From Candidatus Rokuibacteriota bacterium (lineage in GTDB: Bacteria > Methylomirabilota > Methylomirabilia > Rokubacteriales > CSP1-6), in assembly GCA_003221515.1 (NCBI GenBank), contig QHSI01000029.1:1-32211 (forward strand): 32,211 nucleotides of DNA. The letters are read 5' to 3'. The notes beneath the pieces are model-generated. The model was not told where the DNA came from. It saw nothing but the letters and a program-made list of their open reading frames with translations, and ran no database searches. The translations under genes were made by a program, and so were the position numbers. Of this stretch, positions 8,122 to 23,731 are shown one piece after another (positions within the stretch are counted from its first letter, which is position 1; every line of letters starts with the position of its first letter).

Positions 8122-9708
8122 TCACAGGTCGTTGCCGGAGTACGAGAGGTTGAACGATTTGTTGCAGAGCGGAAAGTCCGGGACGATGTTCTTCAGCACC
8201 GCATATTCGAGCGCCGGCCAGTTCCGGAACGACGGATCGACGATCTTCACGCGCCGGAGCGACGCCGGCCCGTCGGCCAGCACCCAGTGCCAGACGGGGC
8301 CCCGCCACGCCTCGACGAGACCGAAGCCCTGCGCGCCGGCCGTCATCGCGGGCAGCGGGACGCGCGTGGGCCCGGCGGGATCGCGGTCGGCCGCGGCCCG
8401 GATCAGCCGCGTGGCCTCGCGCGCCTCGTCCAGGCGCACCATGGTCCGCGCCCACACGTCGCCTTCCGCGTAGACCGGCGCGCGCACCTCGAGCTCGGCG
8501 TACGCCGCGAACGGGGCATCGCGCCGCGCGTCCGCGTCGATGCCGCTCGCGCGCCCGACGAGCCCGACGACCTGCATCCCCCTCGCGATCGGCGTCGTGA
8601 GCCGCCCGGTGCCCTGGAGTCGCTCGAGCACCGTCGTGTTGGCGAGGCACACGCCCACGATCTCGACGAATTCGGTGACCAGGCGCTCGACCGTCTTCGC
8701 GACGTCCTTCAGCGCCGGGGCGCCGACGGCTTCCGCGACCCCGCCCGGCACGACGGCGCCGCGGAGGAGACGGTGGGTGGTGAGCCGCGCGTTCAATCTG
8801 AGCAGCTCCTCACGGAGCCGGAAGCAATGCGCGTGGCCGAAGGCGAAGCCGGTGTCGTTGATGATCATGCCCACGTCGCCGACGTGGTTGTAGAGGCGCT
8901 CGAGCTCCAGGAGCACGACGCGCAGCCACGCCCCGCGGGCGGGAACGGCGCAGCCGGTGAGCGCCTCGAGGGCCTGGCAGTAGGCGAGCGCGTGGCCGAC
9001 GGCCGTGTCGCCGGAGACGCGCTCGGCGAGCGCCGGCGTCCGCTCGAACGGAAGCGTCTCGAAGAGCTTTTCGGTGCCCTTGTGGACGAAGCCGAGTCGG
9101 GTTTCGAGGTTGACGATCGTCTCGCCCTCGACGCTGAATCGGAAGTGACCGGGCTCGATGATGCCGGCGTGGACGGGCCCCACGGTGATCTCGTAGATGC
9201 CCTCGCCTTCGACGCGGCGGAACGGGAACGCCTCACCCGCGTCGACGAAGTCGGTGCGCGCGGTCACGTCGCGACGCAGCGGGTGGTAGTCCGCCGGCCA
9301 GAACTGATGGAGGGCGAGACGGCGGAGATCGGGGTGGCCGAGGGGAACCAGGCCGAGCAGGTCGTGGATCTCGCGCTCGAACCGGCTCGCGGCGAACGAG
9401 CGCGTGGCCAGCGACGGGAACGACGCGGTCGACGCGGGCACCGACACGCGGACGACGACGGCGGGCCTCAGTCGCGCGGGCGCGAACACGTAGACGAGCG
9501 TGAAGTCACCATAGTCGGATCGCGTGTCGGTCGCCGCGAGGAACTGGCAGTGAGCGCCGAGCTCGGCCAGGCGATCGGCGAACGCCGGGATCCCCGCGCT
9601 GGACAGCCGGCACGCGATCGCCCCGGGCAACGACGGCGTCACCAGCGTCGCGCCCGCCTCGAGCGCGGCCCGCTCGAACGATTCGGACGTACTCGGCGCC
9701 GGGGGCAT
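8122..9708 (-). CDS. HyfG/HycE-like large subunit without NiFe-ligand cysteines (Ehr complex)
   Basis: The 528-residue protein is a fusion of a NuoC-like domain (about 1-160, including FEREIHDLLGL) and a NuoD/hydrogenase-large-subunit domain (about 165-528). The segment VGPVHAGIIEPGHFRF is typical of HycE/HyfG rather than of complex I NuoD. In NiFe hydrogenases the metal is held by RxCGxC and DPCxxC motifs. Here these read R230-VSGDT and D491-PSFRN, so the cysteines are replaced by Ser232, Thr235, Ser493 and Asn496. It therefore cannot bind a classical NiFe centre. Loss of these ligands defines the Ehr complexes, which sit between group 4 hydrogenases and complex I. It is the last gene of the operon, 1 base after the HyfF-like stop. 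The start ATG is at 9706-9708. Confidence 0.88.
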   Translation of the reverse strand: MPPAPSTSESFERAALEAGATLVTPSLPGAIACRLSSAGIPAFADRLAELGAHCQFLAATDTRSDYGDFTLVYVFAPARLRPAVVVRVSVPASTASFPSLATRSFAASRFEREIHDLLGLVPLGHPDLRRLALHQFWPADYHPLRRDVTARTDFVDAGEAFPFRRVEGEGIYEITVGPVHAGIIEPGHFRFSVEGETIVNLETRLGFVHKGTEKLFETLPFERTPALAERVSGDTAVGHALAYCQALEALTGCAVPARGAWLRVVLLELERLYNHVGDVGMIINDTGFAFGHAHCFRLREELLRLNARLTTHRLLRGAVVPGGVAEAVGAPALKDVAKTVERLVTEFVEIVGVCLANTTVLERLQGTGRLTTPIARGMQVVGLVGRASGIDADARRDAPFAAYAELEVRAPVYAEGDVWARTMVRLDEAREATRLIRAAADRDPAGPTRVPLPAMTAGAQGFGLVEAWRGPVWHWVLADGPASLRRVKIVDPSFRNWPALEYAVLKNIVPDFPLCNKSFNLSYSGNDL

Positions 9709-9709
9709 G

Positions 9710-11146
9710 TCAGCGCGCCACGATCGCCGCGACCCGGTCGAGCGTGGCCGCGAGCCCGGGCGGCCACGCGAGCCCGGTGAGCAGGAGCAGCGCGAGCGCA
9801 CCCGCCAGAGGAATCGCGCGAGGCCAGCCGCCGGCCTCCACGACGGGGTGCCGCGATGATGGCGCGCCGTAGAGGATCGCGTGCGTCGTGCGCAGGAGGC
9901 CCGCGAACGCTATCACGAACAAGATCAGCCCGACGGCCGCGATGAAGGGGAAGCCCTGCGTGAAGCCGGCGGCGAAGATCATGACCTCGCTGACGAAGAG
10001 GCCGAAGGGCGGCAGGCCGAGGAGCGCCAGCATCGCCGCGAGGAAGCCTCCGCCGGTGAACGGCATGGGCCCCATCAGACCGCTCACCGCCGAAATCTCG
10101 GTCGAGCCGTAGGCCTTGCGGATCCGCCCGGACAGGACGAACAGGACCGACTTGGCCAGGGCGTGGTTCGCGATGTGGAGCAGGGCACCGGCGGTGCCCC
10201 AGACGCCGCCGAAGCCGAGCCCCAGGCAGACGAGCCCGATGTGCTCGACGCTCGAGTACGCGAGTGTGCGCTTGTAGTTCGTCGACGTCCACAGGAACGC
10301 GGCCGCGACGGCGATCGACACGAGTCCGAGCGCCAGCAGGATGCGCCGGGCGAACTCCGGCCCCGCCGCGAGATCGACGACCGGCTTGAAGCGGAGGACC
10401 GCGTAGACGCCCACGCTCAGCAACACGCCCGACATGAGCGCGCTCACGGGCGCCGGCGCCTCGCTGTGGGCGTCGGGGAGCCAGGTGTGCATCGGCGCGA
10501 GCCCGGCCTTGGTGCCGTAGCCCACGACGAGGAAGACGAACGCCAGCTCGATGACCCGCGGCGCCAGCCCCGGCGCCAGCCGCACGACCGTCGTCCAGCG
10601 CAGCGCGTGGGCCTCGTCGCCGAACTGCTGGATCCCGGCGAAGTACACGAGGACGGTGCCCAGGAACGCGACGGCGATGCCGACCGAGCAGATCAGCAGG
10701 TACTTGTACGAGGCCTCGAGCGAGGACCGGGTGCGCTCGAAGTTCACGAGAAAGACCGAGGCGAGCGTGGTGCCCTCGATCGCGACCCACATGAGTCCGA
10801 CGTCGTCGGTGGAGACGGCCAGCAGCATCGTGAAGACGAAGAGGTGGAAGAGCGGATAGAAGCGGCCCGGCGCGTCGGGGCGGAGGTACGCCGGCGCCTC
10901 GGTGGCGGCGAGCGCCGCGACGACGCCGATGAGGGCGATCATCCAGGCGGAGAGCGCGTCGGCGCGGAGGAGGCCATCGACGGCGGCCAGCGGCCCGCCG
11001 CGGTTCACCTGGACGGCGACGCCGAGGGCCGCGGCCAGCGTGAACGCACTGGTGAGGCCGTGGAGGACCGTGGCCCGCGAGCCCGAAGCGCGCCAGAGAA
11101 CCAGCGCCCCCACGAGCGGAACGGCGAGGAGGACGATGAGCGTCAT
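9710..11146 (-). CDS. HyfF-like antiporter-type membrane subunit (NuoN/NuoL family)
   Basis: The 478-residue polytopic protein belongs to the proton-translocating antiporter-like family. It shows the key Glu124 in WVAIEGTTLAS, Lys213 in YGTKAGLAPMHTWLPDAHSE and the HANHALAKSVLF helix. The HyfF assignment rests on the MHTWLPDAHSEAPAPVSALM segment. At the position where the HyfB paralogue in this operon has Lys219, this protein has Ser244 (GVLLSVGVY), as is common for HyfF-type subunits. Its ATG (11144-11146) overlaps the stop of the HyfE-like gene by the four bases ATGA. It would form part of the ion-pumping arm of the Ehr complex in the inner membrane. Confidence 0.9.
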   Translation of the reverse strand: MTLIVLLAVPLVGALVLWRASGSRATVLHGLTSAFTLAAALGVAVQVNRGGPLAAVDGLLRADALSAWMIALIGVVAALAATEAPAYLRPDAPGRFYPLFHLFVFTMLLAVSTDDVGLMWVAIEGTTLASVFLVNFERTRSSLEASYKYLLICSVGIAVAFLGTVLVYFAGIQQFGDEAHALRWTTVVRLAPGLAPRVIELAFVFLVVGYGTKAGLAPMHTWLPDAHSEAPAPVSALMSGVLLSVGVYAVLRFKPVVDLAAGPEFARRILLALGLVSIAVAAAFLWTSTNYKRTLAYSSVEHIGLVCLGLGFGGVWGTAGALLHIANHALAKSVLFVLSGRIRKAYGSTEISAVSGLMGPMPFTGGGFLAAMLALLGLPPFGLFVSEVMIFAAGFTQGFPFIAAVGLILFVIAFAGLLRTTHAILYGAPSSRHPVVEAGGWPRAIPLAGALALLLLTGLAWPPGLAATLDRVAAIVAR

Positions 11147-11784
11147 CCGCGCAGCTCCCGCAGCCGGTCTACCTCGATCGAGTCGTGCTCGCGGCGCACC
11201 TCGACGACGACCGCCTCCATGATCAGGACGATCACGAGCACGTCGAGGAACACGCCGGCCTCGACGATGCCGGGCAAGCCGTAGGTGGCGAGGATCGCCA
11301 GGCCGAAGATCCCGTTCTCGAAGACGAGGAAGCCGAGGATGTGCCCGAGCGCGTCGCGTCCGGTGACGCACAAGAAGAGCCCGATGAGCGCGATCGCGAA
11401 CGCCAGCGGGATCGCGCCCTCGGTCGGCAGCTCGGCCGCCGCCGTGACCGGCAGCATGATCACGTAGGCGACGACGACGAGGGCGCCGGCGACGAGGACG
11501 GACATCCCCGACGACCGGCCGGGCGCGATCGGGCGCACCGGCGCGCCAGCGCCGATGCGCGAGAGCACGCGGGGGATCACCCACGCCTTGACCACGACGA
11601 CGACCGCGGCGACGAGGAGCAGCGCGCGCCGGTGGGCGAACAGGCCGACGGCGCTCGCCAGCGCGGCCAGCAGCAGCGATTGCGCGACGAAGAGCCGCCG
11701 CCGGGCCGGCCAGCTCTGCCGCCAGACGATCAGCAGCGTGACGACCAGGCCGAAGAACGCGAGGAGGTTCGAGACCGTCGTCAT
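11143..11784 (-). CDS. HyfE-like membrane subunit (NuoK-related)
   Basis: The 213-residue hydrophobic protein is close in length to E. coli HyfE. The C-terminal half contains the NuoK-like helices, including VTGRDALGHILGFLVFENG with its buried glutamate, followed by FLDVLVIVLIMEAVVVEVRR. NuoK-type subunits carry conserved acidic residues used in proton transfer. The ATG at 11782-11784 shares one base with the TGA of the HyfC-like gene (TGATG), and its own stop overlaps the HyfF-like start, so translation is likely coupled through the whole set. Confidence 0.88.
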   Translation of the reverse strand: MTTVSNLLAFFGLVVTLLIVWRQSWPARRRLFVAQSLLLAALASAVGLFAHRRALLLVAAVVVVVKAWVIPRVLSRIGAGAPVRPIAPGRSSGMSVLVAGALVVVAYVIMLPVTAAAELPTEGAIPLAFAIALIGLFLCVTGRDALGHILGFLVFENGIFGLAILATYGLPGIVEAGVFLDVLVIVLIMEAVVVEVRREHDSIEVDRLRELRG

Positions 11785-12725
11785 CAGACCAGGACCACCG
11801 CCATGACCGAGAGAATCGCCAGCGCGAACGAACCGGCCAGTAGCTCGGGGACGCGGAAGAGGCGCAGCTTCGCGACGGTCGTCTCCAGCACCGCGAGCGC
11901 GATCACGAGCAGCACGAGCTTGCCGGCCAGCACCAGGACGCCGAGCGGGATCGCCGCCGGGCCCGTCAGGCCACCGGCGCCCCACGGGAAGAAGAGGTTC
12001 GCCAGCAGCGTCATGAACAGGCAGAGCTTCATGGCGCTCGCCCACTCGACGAGCGCCAGGTAGCGGCCCGAATACTCCAGCACCATCGCCTCGTGGATCA
12101 TCGTCAACTCGAGGTGCGTCGCCGGATTGTCGACCGGTAGGCGGCCGGTCTCGGCGAGCATGACGATGAAGAACGCGGCGAATGCCAGCAGGTGGGCCGG
12201 ATTCGCCGCCAGCAGGGGCTCGCGGGAGAATCGCTCCACCACTCGGGCGAGGTCGATCGTCTCGGCGCGCATCGCGAGCGCAAAGACCGCAACGATGATC
12301 GTCGGCTCGGCCAGCGCGGCGACCGCGACTTCACGGCTCGACCCCATCCCGCCGAAGGCGCTGCCCGCGTCGAGGCCGGCCAGCGCCAGGAAGAAGGTCC
12401 CGAGCAGGAAGAGGTACATCAACAAGATCACGTCGCCGGGGAAGGCCAGCGGCGGGCGGGCCAGGAATACCGGCACGATGAGCGAGGCCACCAGCATCGT
12501 CGCGGCCAGGACGTAGGGCGTGGCGCGGAAGATCCACGAGGTCGTCGTCGAGACGACGACCTCCTTCGCGAGGAGCTTGCGGAGGTCCGCGTAGGGTTGC
12601 CACGGACTGGGGCCGCGCCGTCCCACGAGCCGCGCCTTGAGGGTGCGCAGCACCCCGACCAGCAGCGGCGCGCCTGCGCCGACCACGATCACCTGCGCGA
12701 CAGCCACCGCGATGGCCGCGATCAC
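11784..12725 (-). CDS. HyfC-like membrane subunit (NuoH family)
   Basis: The 313-residue membrane protein matches the NuoH/HycD/HyfC family. It has RRGPSPWQPYADLRKLLAKE after the first helix, then FGGMGSSRE, the charged loop AETGRLPVDNP (191-201) and THLELTMIHEAMVLEYSG. In complex I this subunit couples the redox arm to the ion-pumping arm, and the Glu/Arg-rich loops are retained here. Translation starts at GTG (12723-12725), which overlaps the HyfB-like stop as GTGA. The conserved N-terminus begins right at this GTG, which supports it over longer readings of the frame. Confidence 0.9.
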   Translation of the reverse strand: MIAAIAVAVAQVIVVGAGAPLLVGVLRTLKARLVGRRGPSPWQPYADLRKLLAKEVVVSTTTSWIFRATPYVLAATMLVASLIVPVFLARPPLAFPGDVILLMYLFLLGTFFLALAGLDAGSAFGGMGSSREVAVAALAEPTIIVAVFALAMRAETIDLARVVERFSREPLLAANPAHLLAFAAFFIVMLAETGRLPVDNPATHLELTMIHEAMVLEYSGRYLALVEWASAMKLCLFMTLLANLFFPWGAGGLTGPAAIPLGVLVLAGKLVLLVIALAVLETTVAKLRLFRVPELLAGSFALAILSVMAVVLV

Positions 12726-14632
12726 GCGAGCACCAGCATGATGAGCAGGACGGCCAGGATGTACGCGAGGTAGAGGTTCGCGCTGCCGGACTGGATCGCC
12801 CGGGCGGCGCGCGCGACCCCGCTCAGCCCGTCCAGCACCGGGCGGTAGAGCCAGTCGTCGAAGATCGAGCGTGTCGGGTTCTCGTACTCGATGCGCTCGA
12901 CGAAGAAGCGCGACTCCGGATGGAAGTCGATGTCGAGCTTCTTGGTGGGCCGATAGAGGAAGTCGAAGACCCGCTTGAAGGGGTTCGCGAACGCGGTCGC
13001 GGTGTATTCCATCCGCGCCGTCTGGCCGATCCGGCCGCAGCCCCACGTCTCGTAGGCGCGGCGGCGGCGCGAGGCGCCGGCCACCCGGAGTCCGAGCGGC
13101 AACGCGACCAGCGCCACGCCGAGGGCGGCGGCGATCGCGAGCGCCGAGCCGGTCGCGAATCCGTCCGACACCCGGAGCGTCAGCCAGTCGCCGAAGGCGA
13201 CGGGCGTCGTGTTGCCCAGCAGCGCGCCGGCGACCGTGGCGAGCGCCGGCACCACCCACGTGGGGCCGAGGCCGAGGGCGACGCACGTGACGGCCAGCAA
13301 GACCATGGCGATCCGCATCGACGGCGGCGCCTCGTGGGCGCGCGCGGCCGCCTCGCTCCGCGGCAGCGCGAGGAAGGTGATGCCGAATGCCTTGACGAAG
13401 CACGCCATCGCGAGGCCGCCCGTCAGCGCGAGCCCCGCGATCCCGAGCGCGAACGCCAGGCTCAGCGACGGCCGGGCGAGGTGGGTGTTCTGGAGCAGGG
13501 CCAGGAACGTGAGCCACTCGCTCACGAAGCCGTTGAGCGGCGGGAGCGCGGAGATCGCCGCCGAGCCCACCAGAAAGCACGCGGCGGTCCACGGCATCCG
13601 CTTGATGAGGCCGCCCATCTCCTCGATGTTGCGGGTGCCGGTGGCGTGGACGACGGCGCCGGCGCCGAGGAACAGCAGTGCCTTGAAGGCGGCGTGGTTG
13701 AGGGTGTGGTAGAGCGCCGCGACGACGCCGAGCAGCGCGAGCGCCTCGAGCCCGGCGCCCTGGTAGAGCAGCCCGGCGCCGATGCCGATCAGGATGATCC
13801 CGATGTTCTCGATGCTGTGGAAGGCGAGAAGCTTCTTGAGATCGTGCTCGACCAGCGCGTAGAGCACGCCGATCACGGACGAGACGGCGCCGACGATCAG
13901 GACGGCGACGCCCCACCACGGGGGCCCGGCGCCGAGCCAGTCGAAGCTCGCCCGCAGCAGGCCGTACACGCCCAGCTTGATCATCACGCCGGACATGAGC
14001 GCCGAAACGTGGCTCGGTGCGGCCGGGTGAGCGAGCGGGAGCCACACGTGCAGCGGAATGACGCCGGCCTTTCCGGCGAAGCCGAGGGCCAACAGCACGA
14101 AGGCCACGCTGCGCGCGCCACCGCCGAGACCGGGCGCGGCCGCGCGCCAGTCCGCGAACTCTGAACTTCCGGTCCAGGCGCCGAGCAGCATCATGCCGGC
14201 GAGCAGGCACGCGAGCCCGGCGTGGGTCATGACCGCGTAGACCCAGCCGGCCCGGAGCGACTCGCGCGATTCGCGCTCGTGCAGCACCAGCAGATAGGAG
14301 GCGAGCGACATCAGCTCCCACGCGATCGCGAACGTCATCATGTTCGCGGCCAGCGGCACCAGGCACATCGAGACGACGAAGACCAGGTACGCGCCCAGAC
14401 CGCGCCGCGCGCCGCCCGCGGAGCCGATCGCGTACACCGACGCGGGCGCGACACCGACGGCGATGACCAGCAGGAAGAATCCGGCGAGCGGGTCGAGGGT
14501 CAGCTGGAGGCCGCCCAGCGGGACGAGCCATCCGACCCGGAGCGTGAAGGCGCCGCCGAACATGCCGTGGAGGCCGAGCGCGGCGGCGCCGACCGCGACG
14601 AGCGCGGCGAGTCCGTACGCGAGGCGCGCCAT
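12722..14632 (-). CDS. HyfB-like antiporter-type membrane subunit (NuoL/NuoM family)
   Basis: The 636-residue protein has about fourteen helices and a cytoplasmic tail. Proton-path residues are conserved: Glu106 (FAIAWELMSLASYLLVLHE), Lys188 (GFAGKAGVIPLHVWLPLAHP) and Lys219 (LMSGVMIKLGVYGL). The C-terminal tail, beginning ETWGCGRIGQTARMEYTATA and containing FANPFKRVFDFLY, is characteristic of hydrogenase-4 component B. I placed the start at the ATG 14630-14632 (MARLAYGLAAL), which overlaps the TGA of the NuoB-like gene by one base; the frame is open further upstream but that would give a non-family extension across the NuoB-like gene. With the HyfF-like protein it would provide two ion-channel subunits. 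Confidence 0.9.
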   Translation of the reverse strand: MARLAYGLAALVAVGAAALGLHGMFGGAFTLRVGWLVPLGGLQLTLDPLAGFFLLVIAVGVAPASVYAIGSAGGARRGLGAYLVFVVSMCLVPLAANMMTFAIAWELMSLASYLLVLHERESRESLRAGWVYAVMTHAGLACLLAGMMLLGAWTGSSEFADWRAAAPGLGGGARSVAFVLLALGFAGKAGVIPLHVWLPLAHPAAPSHVSALMSGVMIKLGVYGLLRASFDWLGAGPPWWGVAVLIVGAVSSVIGVLYALVEHDLKKLLAFHSIENIGIILIGIGAGLLYQGAGLEALALLGVVAALYHTLNHAAFKALLFLGAGAVVHATGTRNIEEMGGLIKRMPWTAACFLVGSAAISALPPLNGFVSEWLTFLALLQNTHLARPSLSLAFALGIAGLALTGGLAMACFVKAFGITFLALPRSEAAARAHEAPPSMRIAMVLLAVTCVALGLGPTWVVPALATVAGALLGNTTPVAFGDWLTLRVSDGFATGSALAIAAALGVALVALPLGLRVAGASRRRRAYETWGCGRIGQTARMEYTATAFANPFKRVFDFLYRPTKKLDIDFHPESRFFVERIEYENPTRSIFDDWLYRPVLDGLSGVARAARAIQSGSANLYLAYILAVLLIMLVLA

Positions 14633-15141
14633 CAGCGCCGGCGCCTGATCGCGTCGAGCAGACCGGCCAGCAACGCCGCCGGGGACGGCGGACACCCCGG
14701 GATGACGGCGTCCACCGGGATCACGTCAGCCACGCCGCCGGCGACCGCATAGGAGCCGCGGAACAACCCGCCGTCACGCCCACAATCGCCGACGGCGATG
14801 ACGAGCTTCGGATCGGGCGTCGCCTCCCACGTGCGCCGCAGCGGCTCGGCCATGTTGCGCGTCACCGGCCCGGTCACCAGCAGACAGTCGGCGTGGCGCG
14901 GCGAGGCGACGAAGTGGAGACCGAATCGCTCGAGGTCGTAGTGCGGGCCGGTGAGCCCACTGATCTCGATCTCGCAGCAGTTGGGGGAGCCCGCGTCGAC
15001 CTGGCGGATGTGGAGCGACCGACCGAAGGCGCGCGTGATCTCGGCGGCGAGCCGCTCGCCGACGCGCTCGAGGTCGGACACGCGCGCCGGGGGCTCGGTC
15101 ACGATGCCGGTGCGCAGCGCGGTCCACAGTTGGCGGAGCAT
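14632..15141 (-). CDS. NuoB/HyfI-like iron-sulfur subunit of the Ehr complex
   Basis: The 169-residue protein matches the NuoB/small-hydrogenase family that carries the N2-type [4Fe-4S] cluster. All four ligands are visible: Cys55-Cys56 (SPNCCEIEI), Cys120 (VIAVGDCGRDGG) and Cys150 (VIPGCPPSP), with spacing like HycG/HyfI. It therefore still has its terminal iron-sulfur cluster although the partner large subunit has lost the NiFe site. In complex I this cluster gives electrons to quinone; what it reduces or oxidises here is unknown. It starts 3 bases after the ArsR-type regulator gene. Confidence 0.9.
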   Translation of the reverse strand: MLRQLWTALRTGIVTEPPARVSDLERVGERLAAEITRAFGRSLHIRQVDAGSPNCCEIEISGLTGPHYDLERFGLHFVASPRHADCLLVTGPVTRNMAEPLRRTWEATPDPKLVIAVGDCGRDGGLFRGSYAVAGGVADVIPVDAVIPGCPPSPAALLAGLLDAIRRRR

Positions 15142-15144
15142 CGG

Positions 15145-15507
15145 TCAGCGCCGCGTCGACCGACGCGCTTCCTGGCGGAGCGCGCGAAGCATCGTCTGGG
15201 TCCCGGCCAGCTGGGTGTTGAAGATCTGTCGCGCGACGTCGAGGAGCTCGCCGACCAGCACGTCGCGCATCGCGTAGCGGACCGTGGTCCCCTCTTTGCG
15301 GGCGGTGACCACGTGCTTGGCGCGCAGGACAGCCAGCTGCTGCGACACGGTCGACTGGTCGAGCTCGAGGCGGGCCTGGAGCTCCTGCACGCTGCGCTCG
15401 CCGGCCCGGAGGATCTCGAGGATCCGGATACGGATGGGGTGCGCCAGCGCCTTGAAGAACTCCGCCTTGAAGGACGGGAGATCGGGGGGCGGCGGCGGCG
15501 CGCTCAT
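15145..15507 (-). CDS. ArsR-family winged-helix regulator heading the Ehr operon
   Basis: The 120-residue protein has the ArsR/SmtB winged-helix fold: HPIRIRILEIL (23-33), recognition region LDQSTVSQQLAVLR (49-62) and beta-wing TARKEGTTVRYAM (68-80). It contains no cysteine, so it cannot use the CxC or other cysteine metal sites of classical ArsR/CadC/SmtB sensors. Such cysteine-free members may respond to redox, sulfide or metabolite cues through other residues, which is not resolvable here. Its stop is 3 bases from the NuoB-like start, so it is probably co-transcribed with and controls the Ehr operon. Promoter and inverted repeat lie immediately upstream, and the ATG is probably at or next to the transcript start. 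Confidence 0.88.
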   Translation of the reverse strand: MSAPPPPPDLPSFKAEFFKALAHPIRIRILEILRAGERSVQELQARLELDQSTVSQQLAVLRAKHVVTARKEGTTVRYAMRDVLVGELLDVARQIFNTQLAGTQTMLRALRQEARRSTRR

Positions 15508-15514
15508 GAGAATT

Positions 15515-15543
15515 CTTATATCAAAGTATTGTTATATAGCCAA
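15515..15543 (-). promoter_or_regulatory. Promoter of the arsR-Ehr operon
   Basis: On the minus strand, -35 TTGGCT (15538-15543) and -10 TATAAG (15515-15520) are separated by exactly 17 bases. The -10 ends 7 bases before the ATG at 15507, so the transcript would start at or beside the start codon. The -35 overlaps the last codons of the upstream glycosyltransferase gene. The region is strikingly AT-rich against about 70% GC around it. Confidence 0.6.
15517..15538. promoter_or_regulatory. Candidate ArsR operator (inverted repeat between -35 and -10)
   Basis: TATATCAA at the left end and TTGTTATATA at the right end form an imperfect inverted repeat of 22 bases. It fills the spacer of the promoter and overlaps both hexamers. 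ArsR-type repressors typically bind such AT-rich dyads and block polymerase, so autoregulation is likely. This is an inference from position. Confidence 0.5.
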
Positions 15544-16686: not shown

Positions 16687-17043
16687 TTACCAGCGACCGC
16701 CGCGGGAGCCGCCGCGACCGGCGCCGCCGCCACCGCCGCCGAAGCCGCCGCGACCACCACCACCGCCGCGCCGGTCGCCACCACCGCCGCCTGTGCCTGG
16801 CGCCTTCGCCTTCTCGACCTGAATCGTCCGGCCGTCGAGGCTCGTGCCGTTGAGGCGGCTGATGGCCTGCTCAGCTTCCTCCGGAGTCGCCATCTCGACG
16901 AAGCCGAAACCGCGCGACCGCCCGGTGTCCCGGTCGGTGACGACGCTCGCGGACTCAACGCTGCCGGTGGCCGCGAAGGCCTCGCGCAGGCGCTCGTTCG
17001 AGGTGGAGAATGAGAGACCGCCGACGAAGAGTTTGACTGCCAT
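16687..17043 (-). CDS. RRM-type glycine-rich RNA-binding protein
   Basis: The 118-residue protein consists of one RNA-recognition motif (about 3-79) and a glycine/arginine-rich tail (81-118). RNP-2 reads KLFVGGL (4-10) and RNP-1 reads RGFGFVEM (44-51), with the aromatic residues that stack on RNA bases. Proteins of this form occur in cyanobacteria and many other bacteria, are often cold-induced, and bind single-stranded RNA. The tail, with runs such as GGGGGRGGFGGGGGG, is disordered and RGG-like. The ATG at 17041-17043 has a good ribosome-binding site (AAGGAG on the minus strand, about 8 bases upstream). The stop is 54 bases from the glycosyltransferase start. Confidence 0.93.
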   Translation of the reverse strand: MAVKLFVGGLSFSTSNERLREAFAATGSVESASVVTDRDTGRSRGFGFVEMATPEEAEQAISRLNGTSLDGRTIQVEKAKAPGTGGGGGDRRGGGGGRGGFGGGGGGAGRGGSRGGRW

Positions 17044-17162
17044 GGAAGGGCTCCTTCTGCCTTCCGAACCTGTGCGCGTCCGGAACTCGGAAAGGAGATC
17101 GGGGACGCGGCCTGACGGGGAGGAGGGTTCACGACGAACCGACGACCGCACCAGACAGCCGA

Positions 17163-17181
17163 AGTATACACTGGTCAACAA
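17163..17181 (-). promoter_or_regulatory. Putative promoter/operator region of the RRM gene
   Basis: On the minus strand TATACT (17163-17168) is a good -10, preceded by TTGTTGACCAGT (17170-17181). The same 12 bases occur in the lexA promoter at 23037-23048. Transcription from here would give a leader of about 110 bases, long enough for post-transcriptional control such as cold response. No matching -35 is evident. Confidence 0.4.
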
Positions 17182-17213
17182 CCTCCGCTACCGATTGTTG
17201 CCAGAGGTGCGAT

Positions 17214-17804
17214 CTGGTCGAGACGTTCATCGAGCATCTCAGGTACGCCGGGCTTTTCCTCGTGCTCCTGGCCGCTGGATTGGGTGCGCCGATACCCGAA
17301 GAGGTGCCGATCGTCGCCGCGGGCGTCCTGTCGCGCGCCGCCGCGCTGCGATGGTGGGTCGCGTTGCCCGTGTGCGTCGGCGGCGTGCTGTCCGGCGACA
17401 CCATCCTCTACTGGGTCGGCCATCACTGGGGTGAGCGGGTCCTCAACTGGCGCCTCGTGCGGCTCGTGCTGAGCCCGGCGCGCGAAGCGCAGCTGACCGC
17501 GGCGTTCCGGAACCACGGCGTGAAGATCGTGTTCACGGCGCGCCACGTGATGGGACTCCGCGCGGCGGTCTTCCTCACGGCCGGCATCGTCCGCGTGCCC
17601 TTCTGGAAGTTCTTCGCGATCGACGCCGGCGCCGCCCTGCTGGGCGTGCCGTTCAGCTTCGGGCTCGCCTTCGTGTTCGCGGACCAGGTCGAGTGGGTGT
17701 TCGCGGACGTGCACCGGGTCGAGCGCTGGCTCGGGCTCCTCGCCGTCATCGGCATCGCCGTCGGGACCGCCATCGCGGTCCGGCGGCGCAGCCCGCGGCC
17801 GTGA
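17214..17804 (+). CDS. DedA-family membrane protein, probable non-canonical start
   Basis: The protein matches the DedA/SNARE-associated family. It has the N-terminal YAGLFLVLLAAGLGAPIPEE, then GVLSGDTILYWVGHHWGERV, the FTARHVMGLRAAVFLTAGIVR segment with its conserved arginines, and two C-terminal helices. DedA proteins are scramblase-like transporters tied to undecaprenyl-phosphate or phospholipid recycling and envelope fitness. The first canonical start in frame is GTG 17262, but that would cut the conserved re-entrant N-terminal segment. The homologous reading runs back to a CTG at 17214 with an AGAGGTG ribosome-binding-like sequence 4-5 bases upstream, so I place the start there, giving 196 residues. 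A frameshift or sequencing error upstream is the other explanation. Confidence 0.78.
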   Translation: MVETFIEHLRYAGLFLVLLAAGLGAPIPEEVPIVAAGVLSRAAALRWWVALPVCVGGVLSGDTILYWVGHHWGERVLNWRLVRLVLSPAREAQLTAAFRNHGVKIVFTARHVMGLRAAVFLTAGIVRVPFWKFFAIDAGAALLGVPFSFGLAFVFADQVEWVFADVHRVERWLGLLAVIGIAVGTAIAVRRRSPRP

Positions 17805-17828
17805 CCCGGCGACTCCTAATGCTATATT
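17801..17828 (+). promoter_or_regulatory. Promoter of the histidine kinase gene, extended -10
   Basis: TGC-TATATT (17820-17828) is an extended -10 with a -35-like GTGACC at 17801-17806 (16-base spacer). Seven bases separate the -10 from the GTG start at 17836, which implies a leaderless transcript. No ribosome-binding site lies before the GTG. The -35 overlaps the DedA stop codon. Confidence 0.5.
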
Positions 17829-17835
17829 CGACTTC

Positions 17836-19146
17836 GTGATCGGCGCGACGTCGGCCGAGCGAAAGCCGTGGCACGCGATCTTCCGTCTGCTCGAGCGGGA
17901 CGAGCGCGCGTTCGCCGTGCTCCTCGCGGTGGTCATGGTGGGCGGCGTCGCCACGCTCGGGCTCGTCCCGCTCCGGCCGCGCCACCGGATCGACCTCTAT
18001 CATCTGGTCATCTGGTTCGCGGCGTACAAGGTCGGCGTCTTCGCGCTCGTGACCGTGAACCCGCGCGCGACCGGGACGTACTTCGCGGGCGCCCTCGGGA
18101 TCGACATGCTGCTGGTCTTCGCGCTCCTGGCCATGACCGGCGGCGGCGACAGTCCGTTCGTGAACCTCTTCTTCCCGCTCGTCGCCGTCAACGCCTACTA
18201 CTTCGGGCGGTGGATCGGTCTGCTGCTCACCGCGGTCGCCGGCCTGCTCTACTGGACGGCGGCGTGGCTCGCCCCGCCGGAGGCCGCGTGGACCGCCGTG
18301 GTGATCCTCATGGGGCTCGTCGGGCTGCCGGCGTTCGCGCTGGGCCACGTGGCCGACCGCGAGCGACGCTCGCGCGCCGAGGTCGAGCGCCTCAACGAGG
18401 AGCTGAAAGGCACGCTCTCGCAGCTCCAGGAGGCGCAGCAGGAGCTGGTCGTCGCCGAGCGCATGGCGACGGTGGGGCGCCTCTCGCTGCGGATCGCCCA
18501 CGAGGTCCGCAACCCGATCAGCGCCATCGAGCTCAACGCCGCGATGCTCGAGGACATCGTCCGCGACCCGAGCGACGAGCAGATGAAGGAGGCGCTGGGC
18601 CTCGTGGCCGCGATCCGCGACCAGGTCACCGCGCTCGACGCGCTGACCGAGGAATACCTGGCGTTCGCCCGGTTCCCGCGTCCCCATTTCGAGGAGGAGT
18701 CCGTCAACCACCTCGCGCAGGAGCTGGCCGACTTCATCCGCCCGGTCGCCACCCGCCAGGGATTGACGGTCCGCGTCGAGGTCGATCCGACCGTGCCCAT
18801 GATGGAGATCGACCGCGGTCTCCTGCGCCAGGCGGTGCTGAACCTCGTCAAGAACGGCCTGGAGGCGCTCTCGAGCGGCGGCGAGCTCACGATCGGGAGT
18901 CGCCTGGAGGGCGAGTCGGTCGAGATCTCGGTTTCCGACACGGGCGGAGGCATTGCCGCCGAGGTCGAGCCGCGGCTCTTCGAGCAGTTCTTCACCACGA
19001 AGCCCCAGGGCACCGGGCTCGGTCTCTCGATCACGCGCCAGATCGCCGAGGAGCACGGCGGTGAGATCCGGTGGGCCAACCGGGCCGGCCACGGCGCGAC
19101 GTTCACGATTCGCCTGCCGCTCAAGCGAGTGCGGGCCAATGCCTGA
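17836..19146 (+). CDS. Membrane histidine kinase (NtrB/ZraS-like)
   Basis: The 436-residue kinase has about six transmembrane helices (25-170), a coiled coil (176-212), the dimerisation/phosphoacceptor domain with His222 in IAHEVRNPISAIELN, and an HATPase_c domain. The ATP-site motifs are the N-box NLVKNGLEA (336-344), G1 DTGGGI (368-373), the F-box LFEQFFTTK and G2 GTGLGLS (392-398). There is no periplasmic sensor domain or PAS, so the signal is probably sensed within the membrane. It overlaps the NtrC-type regulator gene by 8 bases (ATG at 19139, stop at 19144-19146), which identifies the cognate partner. Confidence 0.93.
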   Translation: MIGATSAERKPWHAIFRLLERDERAFAVLLAVVMVGGVATLGLVPLRPRHRIDLYHLVIWFAAYKVGVFALVTVNPRATGTYFAGALGIDMLLVFALLAMTGGGDSPFVNLFFPLVAVNAYYFGRWIGLLLTAVAGLLYWTAAWLAPPEAAWTAVVILMGLVGLPAFALGHVADRERRSRAEVERLNEELKGTLSQLQEAQQELVVAERMATVGRLSLRIAHEVRNPISAIELNAAMLEDIVRDPSDEQMKEALGLVAAIRDQVTALDALTEEYLAFARFPRPHFEEESVNHLAQELADFIRPVATRQGLTVRVEVDPTVPMMEIDRGLLRQAVLNLVKNGLEALSSGGELTIGSRLEGESVEISVSDTGGGIAAEVEPRLFEQFFTTKPQGTGLGLSITRQIAEEHGGEIRWANRAGHGATFTIRLPLKRVRANA

Positions 19147-20521
19147 TCCGGCAACGCTGCTGGTCGCCGATGACGACCCGGGACTGCGCGAGAGCCTCGA
19201 GCGCACGCTGACCCGTGAGGGCTATCGCGTGGTACTCGCGTCGGACGGACGGGCCGCGCTCGAGCGCGTGCAGGCCGGCGGCGTCGACCTCATCGTGACG
19301 GATCTGAGAATGCCGGGATTGACCGGCCTCGAGTTGCTACGCGCGGCGAAGGCGATCAGGCCCGACGTCGACGTGATCTTGCTGACGGCGTTCGGCACCG
19401 TCGAGGAAGCGGTCAAGGCGATGAAGGACGGCGCCTACGACTTCCTCACCAAGCCGTTCCGGCGCGAGCAGCTGCTGAAGCTCGTCGACAAGGCCCTCGA
19501 GCGGCGCGACCTGATCGAGCAGAACAAGGCGCTCAAGAAGCAGCTGGAAGACATTCGCGCCAAGGGACAGATGATCGGCGCGAGCCCCGCGTTCCGGCGG
19601 ATGCTGACCCTCGTCGAGCAGATCGCCGACAGCTCCGCGACGATTCTCATCCAGGGCGAGAGCGGGGCGGGCAAGGAGCTGGTGGCGCGTGCGATCCACG
19701 AGCGGTCGGGCCGTCGCACCGGCCCCTTTGTGGCCGTCAACTGCGCGGCCCTGCCGGAGACTCTCCTCGAGTCCGAGCTGTTCGGCTACGAGAAAGGGGC
19801 GTTCACCGGCGCCGCCGGCCGCAAGGAAGGCCGCTTCGAGCTGGCGCACGGCGGCACGCTCTTCCTCGACGAGGTGGCCGACCTCTCGCTGGTCACGCAG
19901 CCCAAGATCCTGCGCGTGCTCCAGGAGGGCGAGTTCGAGCGCCTCGGGGGAACGCGCACGCTCCAGGTCGACGTGCGCATCGTGGCGGCAACCAACCAGG
20001 ACCTGGCCGAGATGGTGAAGGAAAAACGCTTCCGCGAGGACCTCTACTACCGCCTCAACGTCATCACCGTCCGCGTGCCGCCCTTGCGCGAGCGTCACGA
20101 GGACATCCGCGTCCTCGCTCAGCACTACCTGCGGGTCTACGCCGCCAAGAACGGCCGAAAGCTCGAGGGCTTCTCGAACGAGGCGCTGGAGCGGCTCGAG
20201 TCATATGCCTGGCCGGGCAACGTGCGGGAGCTCGAGAACCTCATCGAGCGCACCGTGCTGCTCGCCCGAAAGGATCGCCTCGACGCCGAGGACCTGCCCG
20301 AAGAGGTCGCGGGCGTGAAGCGCCCGCCGCGCGACGCGATTCTGGAGTTGGTCGGCACGCCGCTCGACGAGATCGAGCGGCGGCTGCTGGACGAGACGCT
20401 CCGCATCACCGGCGGCAACAAGACGCAGGCGGCGAAGCTACTCGGGATCGACGTGCGCACGGTGGCGCGCAAGCTCGAACGTCGCGACGACGACGTCGTG
20501 GAGGGCGGCGACCGGCCGTGA
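19139..20521 (+). CDS. Sigma-54-dependent response regulator (NtrC family)
   Basis: The 460-residue protein has three domains. The receiver (5-120) has acidic DDD 11-13, phospho-acceptor Asp55 in LIVTDLRMPG and Lys105 in FLTKPF. The AAA+ domain (about 145-380) has Walker A GESGAGKE (173-180), the sigma-54 contact loop GAFTGA (220-225) and Walker B LFLDE (241-245). A Fis-type helix-turn-helix closes the protein (NKTQAAKLLGIDVRTVARKL). It remodels sigma-54 RNA polymerase after phosphorylation by the upstream kinase. No clear -12/-24 promoter was seen in the window, so the targets lie elsewhere or are diverged. Its stop overlaps the next gene start as GTGA. Confidence 0.95.
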   Translation: MPDPATLLVADDDPGLRESLERTLTREGYRVVLASDGRAALERVQAGGVDLIVTDLRMPGLTGLELLRAAKAIRPDVDVILLTAFGTVEEAVKAMKDGAYDFLTKPFRREQLLKLVDKALERRDLIEQNKALKKQLEDIRAKGQMIGASPAFRRMLTLVEQIADSSATILIQGESGAGKELVARAIHERSGRRTGPFVAVNCAALPETLLESELFGYEKGAFTGAAGRKEGRFELAHGGTLFLDEVADLSLVTQPKILRVLQEGEFERLGGTRTLQVDVRIVAATNQDLAEMVKEKRFREDLYYRLNVITVRVPPLRERHEDIRVLAQHYLRVYAAKNGRKLEGFSNEALERLESYAWPGNVRELENLIERTVLLARKDRLDAEDLPEEVAGVKRPPRDAILELVGTPLDEIERRLLDETLRITGGNKTQAAKLLGIDVRTVARKLERRDDDVVEGGDRP

Positions 20522-21696
20522 AGGCCCTCCTGTTGACCCGCGAGTATCCGCCGCACGTCTACGGCGGCGCGGGCGTCGTGGTCGGTCAGCTCGCGCAGGC
20601 GCTGGCGAAGCTGATGGCCGTCGAGGTTCGCTGCTTCGGCGAGCGGTCCGCCGCCGAGGCGGCGGCGGCGATCTCGGTGCGCGGCTACACGCCCTGGGAT
20701 CGGATCGGCGGCAAGGACGCGCCCCGCTTCGCGCCCGCACTGGAGACGCTGTCGATCGCCCTCGCGATGGCGCGCGATCCCGTCGATGCCACCGTCGCGC
20801 ACGCGCACACCTGGTACGCCGACGTGGCGGGCCTCTGGATCCGCACGCTCCACCGGATCCCGCTGTGCGTGACCCTCCACAGCATGGAGCCACTGCGGCC
20901 GTGGAAGGCCGACCAGCTCGGCAGCGGCTACCTGCTGTCGAGCTGGATCGAGAAGACGGGCGTGGAGGCCGCCGATCGAGTCATCGCGGTCTCGCACCGG
21001 ATGCGCGAGGACATCCTGGCTCACTTCCGCGTCGATCCCGAGCGCGTGGTCGTCATTCACAACGGCATCGATCCCGACCAGTTCCGCCGGACCGAGAACC
21101 GCGACGTCCTGGCGCGCTACGGCATCCGCGAGCCGTACGTGCTCTTCGTCGGGCGCATCACCGATCAGAAGGGGATCTTCCACCTGCTCGAGGCGGCGCC
21201 CCGGTTGCCGTCGGGCGTGCAGGTCGTGCTCTGCGCCTCTGCGCCCGACACTCCCGAGATCGAGGCGCGCCTCCGCAAGGCGGTGCCGGAGCACCCGAAC
21301 GTCGTGTGGATCGGCGCCATGCTGCCGGTGCCCGACGTCGTCCAGCTCTACAGTCATGCCGCGGTCTTCGCCTGCCCGTCGGTGTACGAGCCCTTCGGCC
21401 TGATCAACCTCGAGGCGATGGCCTGCGAGACGCCGGTGGTCGCCTCGGGCGTCGGCGGCATCCTCGAGGTCGTGGACGACGGCAAGACCGGGTTGCTGAT
21501 CGAGCCGGGGCGGCCGGACGTGCTGGCGGCGGCCCTCGGCTCGCTGCTCGCGGATCGCCAGCGCGCCCGGGCCATGGGACGCGCCGGGCGCCTCCGCGTG
21601 GAGGCGCAGTTCAGCTGGGCCAGCGTCGCCGCGCAGACCCGCGAGGTCTACGCGGAGGCGGTGGCCGACTTCGCCCGGTCGTCGGAAAACGGCTAA
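20518..21696 (+). CDS. Glycogen synthase-like glycosyltransferase (GT4)
   Basis: The 392-residue protein resembles the GlgA/GlgM branch of GT4 first described in actinobacteria. It opens LLTREYPPHVYGGAGVVVGQ, followed by VAHAHTWYADVAGLW and CVTLHSMEPLRPWKADQLG. The C-terminal domain contains VLFVGRITDQKGIFHLLEAA and a complete E-x7-E motif in EPFGLINLEAMACETPVVAS. Members use ADP- or UDP-glucose to extend alpha-glucans or to make maltose-1-phosphate. The GTG start at 20518 overlaps the stop of the sigma-54 regulator gene (GTGA), so its translation is probably coupled to that of the two-component system. No other glycogen genes are in the window. Confidence 0.87.
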   Translation: MKALLLTREYPPHVYGGAGVVVGQLAQALAKLMAVEVRCFGERSAAEAAAAISVRGYTPWDRIGGKDAPRFAPALETLSIALAMARDPVDATVAHAHTWYADVAGLWIRTLHRIPLCVTLHSMEPLRPWKADQLGSGYLLSSWIEKTGVEAADRVIAVSHRMREDILAHFRVDPERVVVIHNGIDPDQFRRTENRDVLARYGIREPYVLFVGRITDQKGIFHLLEAAPRLPSGVQVVLCASAPDTPEIEARLRKAVPEHPNVVWIGAMLPVPDVVQLYSHAAVFACPSVYEPFGLINLEAMACETPVVASGVGGILEVVDDGKTGLLIEPGRPDVLAAALGSLLADRQRARAMGRAGRLRVEAQFSWASVAAQTREVYAEAVADFARSSENG

Positions 21697-21703
21697 CGCG
21701 CGC

Positions 21704-22492
21704 GTGCCCCCCCAGAGCCTGTCGACCCTCCGCGGCTTCGTCTTCGACCTCGACGGCTGCGTCTGGAGCGGCAACGCCCTCAACCCGGGCGCCGGCGACG
21801 CCCTCGCGGCGCTCGGCCGAGCCGGCCGCGGGCTCGCCTTCGTCTCGAACAACTCGCGCGCGACCGGCGCCGACCTGCGGGCGCGGCTGCAGGGCCTCGG
21901 CGTCGGCGTCGCCCACCACGTCCTGACGCCGCTCGAGATCATCGGCGTAGTGATCCGCGAAAGATTCGGACCGTCGCGCGTGCTCGTCATCGGCGCTCCC
22001 GAGCTGGCCGCCGTGGTCGCGGCGGCGGGCCACGAGGTCGTCGACGTGAAGGACTACCGGAAGGCGAGCGTCGTCGCGGTCGGCAACGACTTCGACCTGA
22101 GCTACGAGCGGCTGACCATCGCGGCGCGCGCCGCCGCAAGCGGAGCGCCGCTCGTCACGCCGAACGTGGATCCGCGCCTGCCGATCGAGGGCGGCGACTT
22201 CCTGCCCGGCTGCGGCGCGATCATCGCCGCGGTCGCGGCCGCGGCGGGCGTGCGTCCGATCGTGGTGGGCAAGCCCGAGCCGCCGCTGTTCCGCATCGCG
22301 CTCGAGCGGCTGGGGCTGCCGTCCGCCGCCGCGGCGATGGTGGGCGACAGCGTTCTGTCCGACATCCGCGGTGCCCGGGCCGTCGGCATGCAGACGGTGC
22401 TGTACGCGCCCGATGGCAACGCGCCAACCGGCGAGGCGGACGTCGTGGTGGGCTCGTTCGCCGAGCTGGCGCGGCTCGCCGGGGTCGGCTAG
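21704..22492 (+). CDS. HAD-IIA family phosphatase (NagD/PGP-like)
   Basis: The 262-residue protein has the HAD motifs: motif I FDLDGCVWSG (nucleophile Asp15, acid/base Asp17), motif II SNNSR, motif III lysine in VVGKPEPPLF and motif IV GDSVLSDIRGARAVGM. The C2A-type cap between motifs II and III places it with NagD, 4-nitrophenylphosphatase and phosphoglycolate phosphatase. Likely substrates are nucleotide monophosphates or small sugar phosphates. The start GTG at 21704 is 7 bases after the glycogen synthase-like gene, so the two may act together on sugar phosphates, which is an inference. Confidence 0.9.
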   Translation: MPPQSLSTLRGFVFDLDGCVWSGNALNPGAGDALAALGRAGRGLAFVSNNSRATGADLRARLQGLGVGVAHHVLTPLEIIGVVIRERFGPSRVLVIGAPELAAVVAAAGHEVVDVKDYRKASVVAVGNDFDLSYERLTIAARAAASGAPLVTPNVDPRLPIEGGDFLPGCGAIIAAVAAAAGVRPIVVGKPEPPLFRIALERLGLPSAAAAMVGDSVLSDIRGARAVGMQTVLYAPDGNAPTGEADVVVGSFAELARLAGVG

Positions 22493-22503
22493 CCGGACCC
22501 GCG

Positions 22504-22512
22504 TGTTACTCT
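22504..22512 (+). promoter_or_regulatory. Putative extended -10 promoter of the tatA-like gene
   Basis: TGT-TACTCT has the extended -10 form and is followed by 7 bases and the ATG at 22520. No ribosome-binding site precedes the ATG, so a leaderless transcript is plausible. No convincing -35 is visible. Confidence 0.35.
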
Positions 22513-22519
22513 AGCCGCG

Positions 22520-22984
22520 ATGTTCGACATCGGGCTGCAGGAGATGCTCGTCATCGGGGTTCTGGCGCTGCTGGTGTTCGGCCCCGGAAAGCTTCCCGAG
22601 CTCGGACGCATGGTGGGTCGCGCGCTGCGAGAATTTCGCCGTGCCAGCGACGAGTTCCGGTCGACCGTCGAGACGAACCTGCACATCAACGATCCCGATC
22701 CGATCATCGCCCCAACGCCCGCGTCCGTCGACGCCGCGCCGGCACCCGTGTTGCCGTCGGAGGCGGAAGGCGCCGTCGCCGCCGGCGATGCCACCCTGGT
22801 CGTGGCGGTCGAGCCGGGCGAGCCGTACTGCGCTCAGCGGACATCGCGGCTGTTCCACAAGAGCGATTGCAGCTGGGTCACGCGGATCCCGGAGCCCGAG
22901 CGGGCGTACTTCAAGCACGTTGTCGATGCCCGCGAGCAGGGGTACGTGACCTGCCCCGTCTGCGAGCCGTGGGAACCCGCCTGA
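22520..22984 (+). CDS. TatA/TatB-like translocase protein fused to a Cys/His-rich putative metal-binding domain
   Basis: Residues 1-50 are a TatA/TatB unit: one membrane helix ([15 protein letters not shown]), the hinge [11 protein letters not shown] and an amphipathic helix with basic residues. A Pro/Ala-rich linker (about 58-100) follows. Residues 101-151 form a separate domain with Cys104, His113, Cys117, Cys145 and Cys148 in a Y-C…FHKSDCSW…YF…[10 protein letters not shown] pattern. That pattern resembles the small Ada-like zinc-binding domain found at the ends of some secreted nucleases. TatA normally ends in an acidic tail, so this fusion is unusual. The tail would face the cytoplasm and could bind zinc or a substrate. 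No tatC is in the window. Confidence 0.85.
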
Positions 22985-23038
22985 TCCGTCGCGTCTGATT
23001 CGCTCGTTTAGGCCTCGCCGGGGCCGCACTCGCTTTTT

Positions 23039-23068
23039 GTTGACCAGTCAACACGAGTTGAGTAATAC
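23039..23068 (+). promoter_or_regulatory. lexA promoter with overlapping GTTGA-type operator
   Basis: -35 TTGACC (23040-23045) and -10 TAATAC (23063-23068) are 17 bases apart. Overlapping the -35 is the dyad GTTGAC-CA-GTCAAC (23039-23052), and a third half-site GTTGAG (23057-23062) completes the inverted pair CAAC-ACGA-GTTG. Such a dyad over the promoter is the expected place for a LexA autoregulatory site, though the sequence is not a classical SOS box. Confidence 0.6.
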
Positions 23069-23089
23069 TTCCGGATCGGGAGGCCGACC

Positions 23090-23731
23090 ATGCGAGAGCT
23101 GACGAACCGACAACGGGAAGTGCTGGGTTTCATGCGGAGCTTCCAGGTCAAGTACGGCGTCCCGCCGACCGTGCGCGAGCTCGGCGAGCGCTTCAAGATC
23201 ACCCCCCGCGCCGCGTTCGATCATCTCCGGGCCCTCGAGCGCAAGGGCGAGCTGCAGCGACGGCCGAGCGTGGGCCGAACCTCGCGGGCGCTGACGCTCC
23301 CCGACGTTGGCGGCGGCCGGGCGCACCAGTCCGTGCCGATCCTCGGCCGGATCGCCGCGGGCGCGCCGCTGCTCGCTCAGGAAAACCGGGAGGGCGAGGT
23401 GCCGATCGCCGCGGCCGCGCTGCCCGCTCGCGGCGAGGACGTCTTCGCGCTTCGTGTCCGGGGCGAGTCGATGATCGAGGCGCACATCTGCGACGGCGAC
23501 CTCGTTCTGGTCCACCGTCAGGACTCGGCGCAGCCGAACGACATCGTCGTTGCCCTGGTCGAGTCGGAGTCGGGCGGTGAAGGCGAGGCGACCGTGAAGC
23601 GATTCTTCCGCGACGGCTCGCGCATCGTGCTCAAGCCCGAGCACCCGACCATGGCGCCGATCGTCATCGATCCCGCTCGCCGCTCGATCCGCATTCTCGG
23701 GAAGGTCATCGGACTACTTCGAGGCTTCTGA
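23090..23731 (+). CDS. lexA: LexA repressor
   Basis: The 213-residue protein has an N-terminal winged helix (TNRQREVLGFMRSFQVKYGV, then PPTVRELGERF) and a C-terminal S24 peptidase fold. The self-cleavage site is Ala90-Gly91 (GRIAAGAP). The catalytic dyad is Ser127 (RGESMIEAHICDGD) and Lys170 (ATVKRFF). It represses SOS genes until RecA filaments trigger autocleavage. The ribosome-binding site GGGAGG lies 6 bases before the ATG. The recognition helix region (ITPRAAFDHLRALERKG) differs from that of E. coli LexA, consistent with a different operator. A small membrane protein gene follows 14 bases after the stop. Confidence 0.96.
   Translation: MRELTNRQREVLGFMRSFQVKYGVPPTVRELGERFKITPRAAFDHLRALERKGELQRRPSVGRTSRALTLPDVGGGRAHQSVPILGRIAAGAPLLAQENREGEVPIAAAALPARGEDVFALRVRGESMIEAHICDGDLVLVHRQDSAQPNDIVVALVESESGGEGEATVKRFFRDGSRIVLKPEHPTMAPIVIDPARRSIRILGKVIGLLRGF

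Follow-up and report, generated by a model that had tools for sequence, protein, structure and literature searches.

The window, by which we mean the whole stretch of 32,211 nucleotides analysed, comes from a soil bacterium of the Rokubacteria/Methylomirabilota and carries an operon of seven minus-strand genes, tightly packed and partly overlapping, in the order ArsR-EhrS-HyfB-HyfC-HyfE-HyfF-EhrL. The features are as follows:

8122..9708, minus strand: EhrL, NuoCD/HyfG/HycE-like large subunit (528 aa; Pfam PF00329 and PF00346)
9710..11146, minus strand: HyfF-like antiporter subunit (478 aa; PF00361 and NCBIfam hydrogenase 4 subunit F models)
11143..11784, minus strand: HyfE-like small membrane subunit (213 aa; NCBIfam hydrogenase 4 membrane subunit model below cut-off, PF00420 weak)
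11784..12725, minus strand: HyfC/HycD/NuoH-like subunit (313 aa; PF00146; top PDB match 7z0s_D)
12722..14632, minus strand: HyfB-like antiporter subunit (PF00361 and HyfB model)
14632..15141, minus strand: EhrS, NuoB/HycG-like small subunit (169 aa; PF01058; top PDB match 7z0s_G)
15145..15507, minus strand: ArsR/SmtB-family regulator, the first gene of the operon (PF01022; NCBIfam HTH_metalloreg above cut-off)
15511..15538, minus strand: AT-rich TATATA-type promoter/operator candidate, TATATAACAATACTTTGATATAAGAATT, directly upstream of ArsR in surroundings of about 70% GC

The ArsR regulator, which contains no cysteines, also adjoins the operon in the Rokubacteria relatives, and nearly all of the relatives examined have a comparable AT-rich element ahead of ArsR. 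This conservation points to a regulated promoter belonging to the operon itself, the element being a candidate for an autoregulated promoter of the ArsR-led operon; a search of the element for a sigma-70 consensus gave no match. Control by a fluoride riboswitch, an idea taken from the Ehr operons of Burkholderia and M. branderi, was rejected for the window operon, as none was found in the window. On the plus strand, positions 17037-23731 encode a VTT-domain protein, a histidine kinase, an NtrC-type regulator, a glycosyltransferase, a HAD phosphatase, TatA and LexA, and the first part of this block also adjoins the Ehr operon in many Rokubacteria relatives.

Both antiporter-type subunits keep most of the usual charged translocation residues, namely E124, K213, H220, K292, H328 and K332 in the HyfF-like protein (with Ser at the TM8 lysine position) and E127, K209, H216, K240, K287, H334 and K338 in the HyfB-like protein. 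The latter residues are counted from the GTG at 14695; the start of this gene is probably the ATG at 14632, which overlaps the EhrS stop. The HyfC-like subunit is of the hydrogenase type, with HycD as its best match.

EhrL has a NuoC-like domain at its N-terminus followed by a NuoD-like domain, and its closest solved relative, by both sequence and fold (TMq 0.83), is the formate hydrogenlyase large subunit HycE of E. coli. A plus-strand reading of 8122-9708 was ruled out, since it yields no hydrogenase-like protein. The translation contains GPVHAGIIEPGHFRF at 177-191, RVSGDT at 230-235 and DPSFRN at 491-496, and the description of the protein in the initial annotation as hydrogenase-4-like, with the first of these segments cited as evidence, holds. 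The same annotation regarded RVSGDT as a degenerate RxCGxC and DPSFRN as a degenerate DPCxxC. In pairwise and profile alignments, RVSGDT indeed lies opposite HycE RVCGIC, but the second motif had been mislocated: the counterparts of DPSFRN are HycE ATYAN and Nqo4 APSFVN, segments of a conserved motif without metal ligands, and HycE DPCYSC aligns with NLSYSG (within NLSYSGND), so that C543 corresponds to S522 and C546 to G525. With these two correspondences, the alignments show that all four NiFe ligands of EhrL are replaced, as had been claimed, the positions being S232, T235, S522 and G525. In a 44-row alignment, these columns read C,C and C,C in the true hydrogenases L070 and L072, and S, T/S, S and G in the window and nearly all Ehr rows; neither ligand motif of the group 4 [NiFe] hydrogenases, RxCGxC or DPCxxC, is present in EhrL. 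The conserved E185 and H188 are kept, in a loop (177-191) of the hydrogenase EPGHF type. The AlphaFold model of EhrL cannot be relied on at 154-211 and 512-528, the very segments that form the pocket. The protein ends at GNDL, three residues past G525, close to the end point of mature hydrogenases, so that a maturation protease would have no tail to remove.

In the articles that cite Marreiros et al. 2013 (PMC6349859, PMC6728331 and PMC10284858), the Ehr (energy-converting hydrogenase-related) complexes are described as having lost the NiFe ligands and as possessing Mrp-antiporter-like subunits, both of which are seen in the window. EhrL is almost certainly an ordinary member of this known family, as the initial annotation had proposed. 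It is a group-4-like large subunit without NiFe cysteines, and NuoB-like, NuoH-like and antiporter-like subunits are encoded in the same operon. In a maximum-likelihood tree, all Ehr rows stood apart from HycE/HyfG, MbhL and NuoD, that is, from group 4 hydrogenases and complex I, with support of 100/99, and the window EhrL fell inside the Rokubacteria Ehr group; the deep positions in this tree are unsure because several branches (L071, L073 and MbhL) are long. The order of the operon is conserved in other Rokubacteria and in class-level relatives, and the six structural genes of a Rhodococcus plasmid are arranged as in the window. The gene list reported for M. tuberculosis Rv0081-Rv0087, regulator-NuoB-HyfB-HyfC-HyfE-HyfF-HyfG, also matches the window operon, a likeness drawn from the list and not from sequences. 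A close EhrL homologue was present in 51 of the 95 genomes of the phylum, and relatives sharing its features, with 44-80% identity, were found in Rokubacteria, Acidobacteria, Latescibacteria, one deltaproteobacterium and candidate phyla.

The NuoB-like partner (15141-14632) has cysteines at all four cluster positions (C55, C56, C120 and C150), as was first noted. Residues 53-56 form a tandem PNCC (codons at 14985-14974, minus strand), resembling the tandem-cysteine N2 motif of complex I, whereas the cluster-bearing relatives, including genomes of the same genus, have CxGC or CxAC (CNGC in known Ehr relatives). The codons for PNCC (CCC AAC TGC TGC) are three bases away from those for CNGC (TGC AAC GGC TGC), a difference too large for one sequencing error; PNCC was seen in one genome, that of the present Rokubacteria/Methylomirabilota host. 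The cysteines are kept in all Rokubacteria, Acidobacteria, Latescibacteria, Rhodococcus and alpha- and betaproteobacterial members examined.

A different pattern was observed in the Patescibacteria (CPR), whose Ehr operon and EhrL motifs resemble those of the window (44-45% identity) but whose EhrS has lost the [4Fe-4S] ligands. Of 380 genomes sampled from the Azambacteria phylum group, 12 yielded an EhrL homologue, and in all 13 CPR-group EhrS proteins examined (L033, L091, L032, L084-L090, L092, L093 and L095) at most one of the four cluster cysteines is kept, the sites typically reading T/D-N-A/S-C/A/E, GDD/GDG and GDPP/GNPP. In the same group, the SGD and NLSYSG pocket motifs of EhrL persist, as do the charged residues in HyfB, HyfC and HyfF, suggesting that electron transfer may be dispensable for some Ehr cores. 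Ion-translocation residues are retained almost throughout the Ehr rows. The cluster cysteines are also lost in EhrS of M. branderi (L073). In some relatives, the Ehr genes lie within or beside ATP synthase operons; for example, the Ehr operon of Azambacteria L033 (1572-12826) is located between atpA-atpG and atpD on the same strand, and that of L091 follows atpA-atpG-atpD on one strand. CPR large subunits without the cysteines are described in PMC7304191; neither the small subunit of Ehr nor ATP synthase comes up in the relevant text. The PNCC motif and the cluster-less CPR small subunits appear to be unreported in the articles cited here other than Marreiros et al. 2013, and we claim no priority.

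Several other arrangements were observed at further loci. A divergent Ehr clade is represented by Burkholderia L071 (8687-16103) and M. branderi L073 (8676-16115), in which the operons are preceded by fluoride riboswitches (RF01734; L071 8377-8447 and L073 8061-8134) and lie in fluoride-resistance islands with CrcB, a CLC-type channel, enolase, pyrophosphatase and DUF190, and EhrS is fused to ferredoxin-type domains. On the Methylovirgula plasmid pHY1 (L068 1-13809), the Ehr operon adjoins a divergently transcribed ATP synthase operon, and an Azospirillum lipoferum plasmid (L114 4108-13302) carries a hydrogenase cluster of group-4-like type, with an aldehyde ferredoxin oxidoreductase gene and HypA next to it.

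Judged from sequence, H2 is not a substrate of the window Ehr, and we consider it somewhat more probable than otherwise that the complex is a non-hydrogenase, single-cluster, redox-driven ion pump. The seven-gene operon would build a hydrogenase-4-shaped membrane complex under its own ArsR-type regulator, with the four EhrS cysteines holding one [4Fe-4S] cluster. A soluble, low-potential, ferredoxin-like donor would dock at the NuoI/HyfH site, the EhrS cluster would relay its electrons to an acceptor or ligand in the remodelled pocket of EhrL (E185, H188, S232-G-D-T235 and NLSYSGND), and the resulting conformational change would drive transport of H+ or Na+ through HyfC/E/F/B. The initial annotation had likewise predicted a single-cluster redox unit attached to two antiporter-type subunits; the antiporter-type subunits, together with the lack of a NuoI/HyfH-type ferredoxin gene among the annotated window genes, agree with this, while the redox role, given the odd PNCC and the cluster loss in a related clade, is one that we infer. 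The cluster cysteines and translocation residues retained across most of the family, and the ATP synthase genes around or beside Ehr genes in some relatives, also speak for such a pump. Against it, no gene for a donor or an acceptor recurs consistently beside the Ehr operon, the neighbours in the relatives being genes for radical SAM, peptidase, PilM, nucleotidase and other proteins, and the window EhrS departs from the CxGC of its relatives.

The main rival, which we regard as unlikely but as the strongest of the alternatives, is a redox-free ion translocator in which EhrS and EhrL would gate the antiporter-type subunits or sense a ligand on their behalf (in H+/Na+ exchange or pH homeostasis, for example), the retained cluster being structural or a redox switch and not a wire. 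The 13 CPR small subunits with their conserved EhrL motifs and HyfB/C/F residues, the Ehr genes of L033 inside and of L091 after the atp genes, and the cysteine-less EhrS of M. branderi all speak for it, but elsewhere all four cysteines persist without exception, implying that a cluster is under selection, and the Ehr of the Patescibacteria may belong to a derived branch that was repurposed. Since the pocket and pump residues persist in a related clade that lacks the cluster, electron transfer may not be the core function of the family. It is conceivable, if rather improbable, that the core job of Ehr is ligand- or conformation-gated ion translocation, that the Patescibacteria Ehr is a complex-I-like ion machine whose core has no redox centre, and that the cluster in the window is an accessory or a sensor.

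About as doubtful is a quinone oxidoreductase, in which the EhrS cluster would reduce or oxidise menaquinone where EhrL meets HyfC, in the manner of complex I. The cores of complex I (NuoB, NuoCD, NuoH and NuoL/M/N) and the window complex are homologous, EhrL to NuoD in particular, and the tandem cysteines of EhrS are NuoB-like. However, the 177-191 loop is of the hydrogenase type, HyfC is closest to HycD, and the Nqo4 residues His38 and Tyr87, the quinone head-group ligands of complex I, lie opposite I184 and G233 of EhrL; complex-I-style quinone binding by the window Ehr is unlikely. The window operon has neither NuoEFG nor NuoI, and separate NuoB and NuoD genes are present on contigs C28 and C125 of the same genome. 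In PMC6349859, quinone is put forward as a possible acceptor of FDH-Ehr, but for some lineages with Ehr no pathway of quinone synthesis was identified. The FDH-Ehr complex itself, proposed for Margulisbacteria and Saganbacteria (PMC6349859), would share the Hyf-type architecture; a formate-linked complex in the window is nevertheless quite improbable, as no formate dehydrogenase gene was found among the annotated window genes or beside the Ehr relatives whose flanks were examined.

The system of E. coli formate hydrogenlyase/hydrogenase-4 (7z0s) gives the top sequence match for EhrL, EhrS, HyfC and HyfB and the top fold match for EhrL, but the window operon differs from it in lacking a HyfH/HycF ferredoxin and a formate dehydrogenase, EhrL lacks the NiFe cysteines and the C-terminal extension, and the genome lacks HypD. 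Specifically, in this genome, estimated to be 95% complete, no PF00374 NiFe large subunit and no HypD were found, and a HypA-like match was weak and sub-threshold, so that neither the Hyp genes nor the C-terminal extension expected for maturation of a group 4 [NiFe] enzyme is in evidence. That EhrL is a true [NiFe] hydrogenase with motifs corrupted by an assembly error, a doubt raised with the initial annotation and to which only its overall similarity to HycE lends colour, is virtually impossible, since the replacements are common to the 16 relatives aligned with EhrL and identical in dozens of independent homologues, close homologues occur in 51 of the 95 genomes of the phylum, and HypD and a maturation tail are missing.

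Ehr is a known hydrogenase-like family, reported also in M. tuberculosis, and its natural EhrS variants, CNGC, PNCC and cluster-less, form a ready-made series for comparing redox with non-redox ion pumping. As far as conserved residues can tell, some Ehr versions have lost every core redox centre while the ion-pumping parts are retained. If the redox-free explanation is true, the Patescibacteria Ehr, with neither NiFe nor [4Fe-4S] ligands, would pump ions without a core redox centre.
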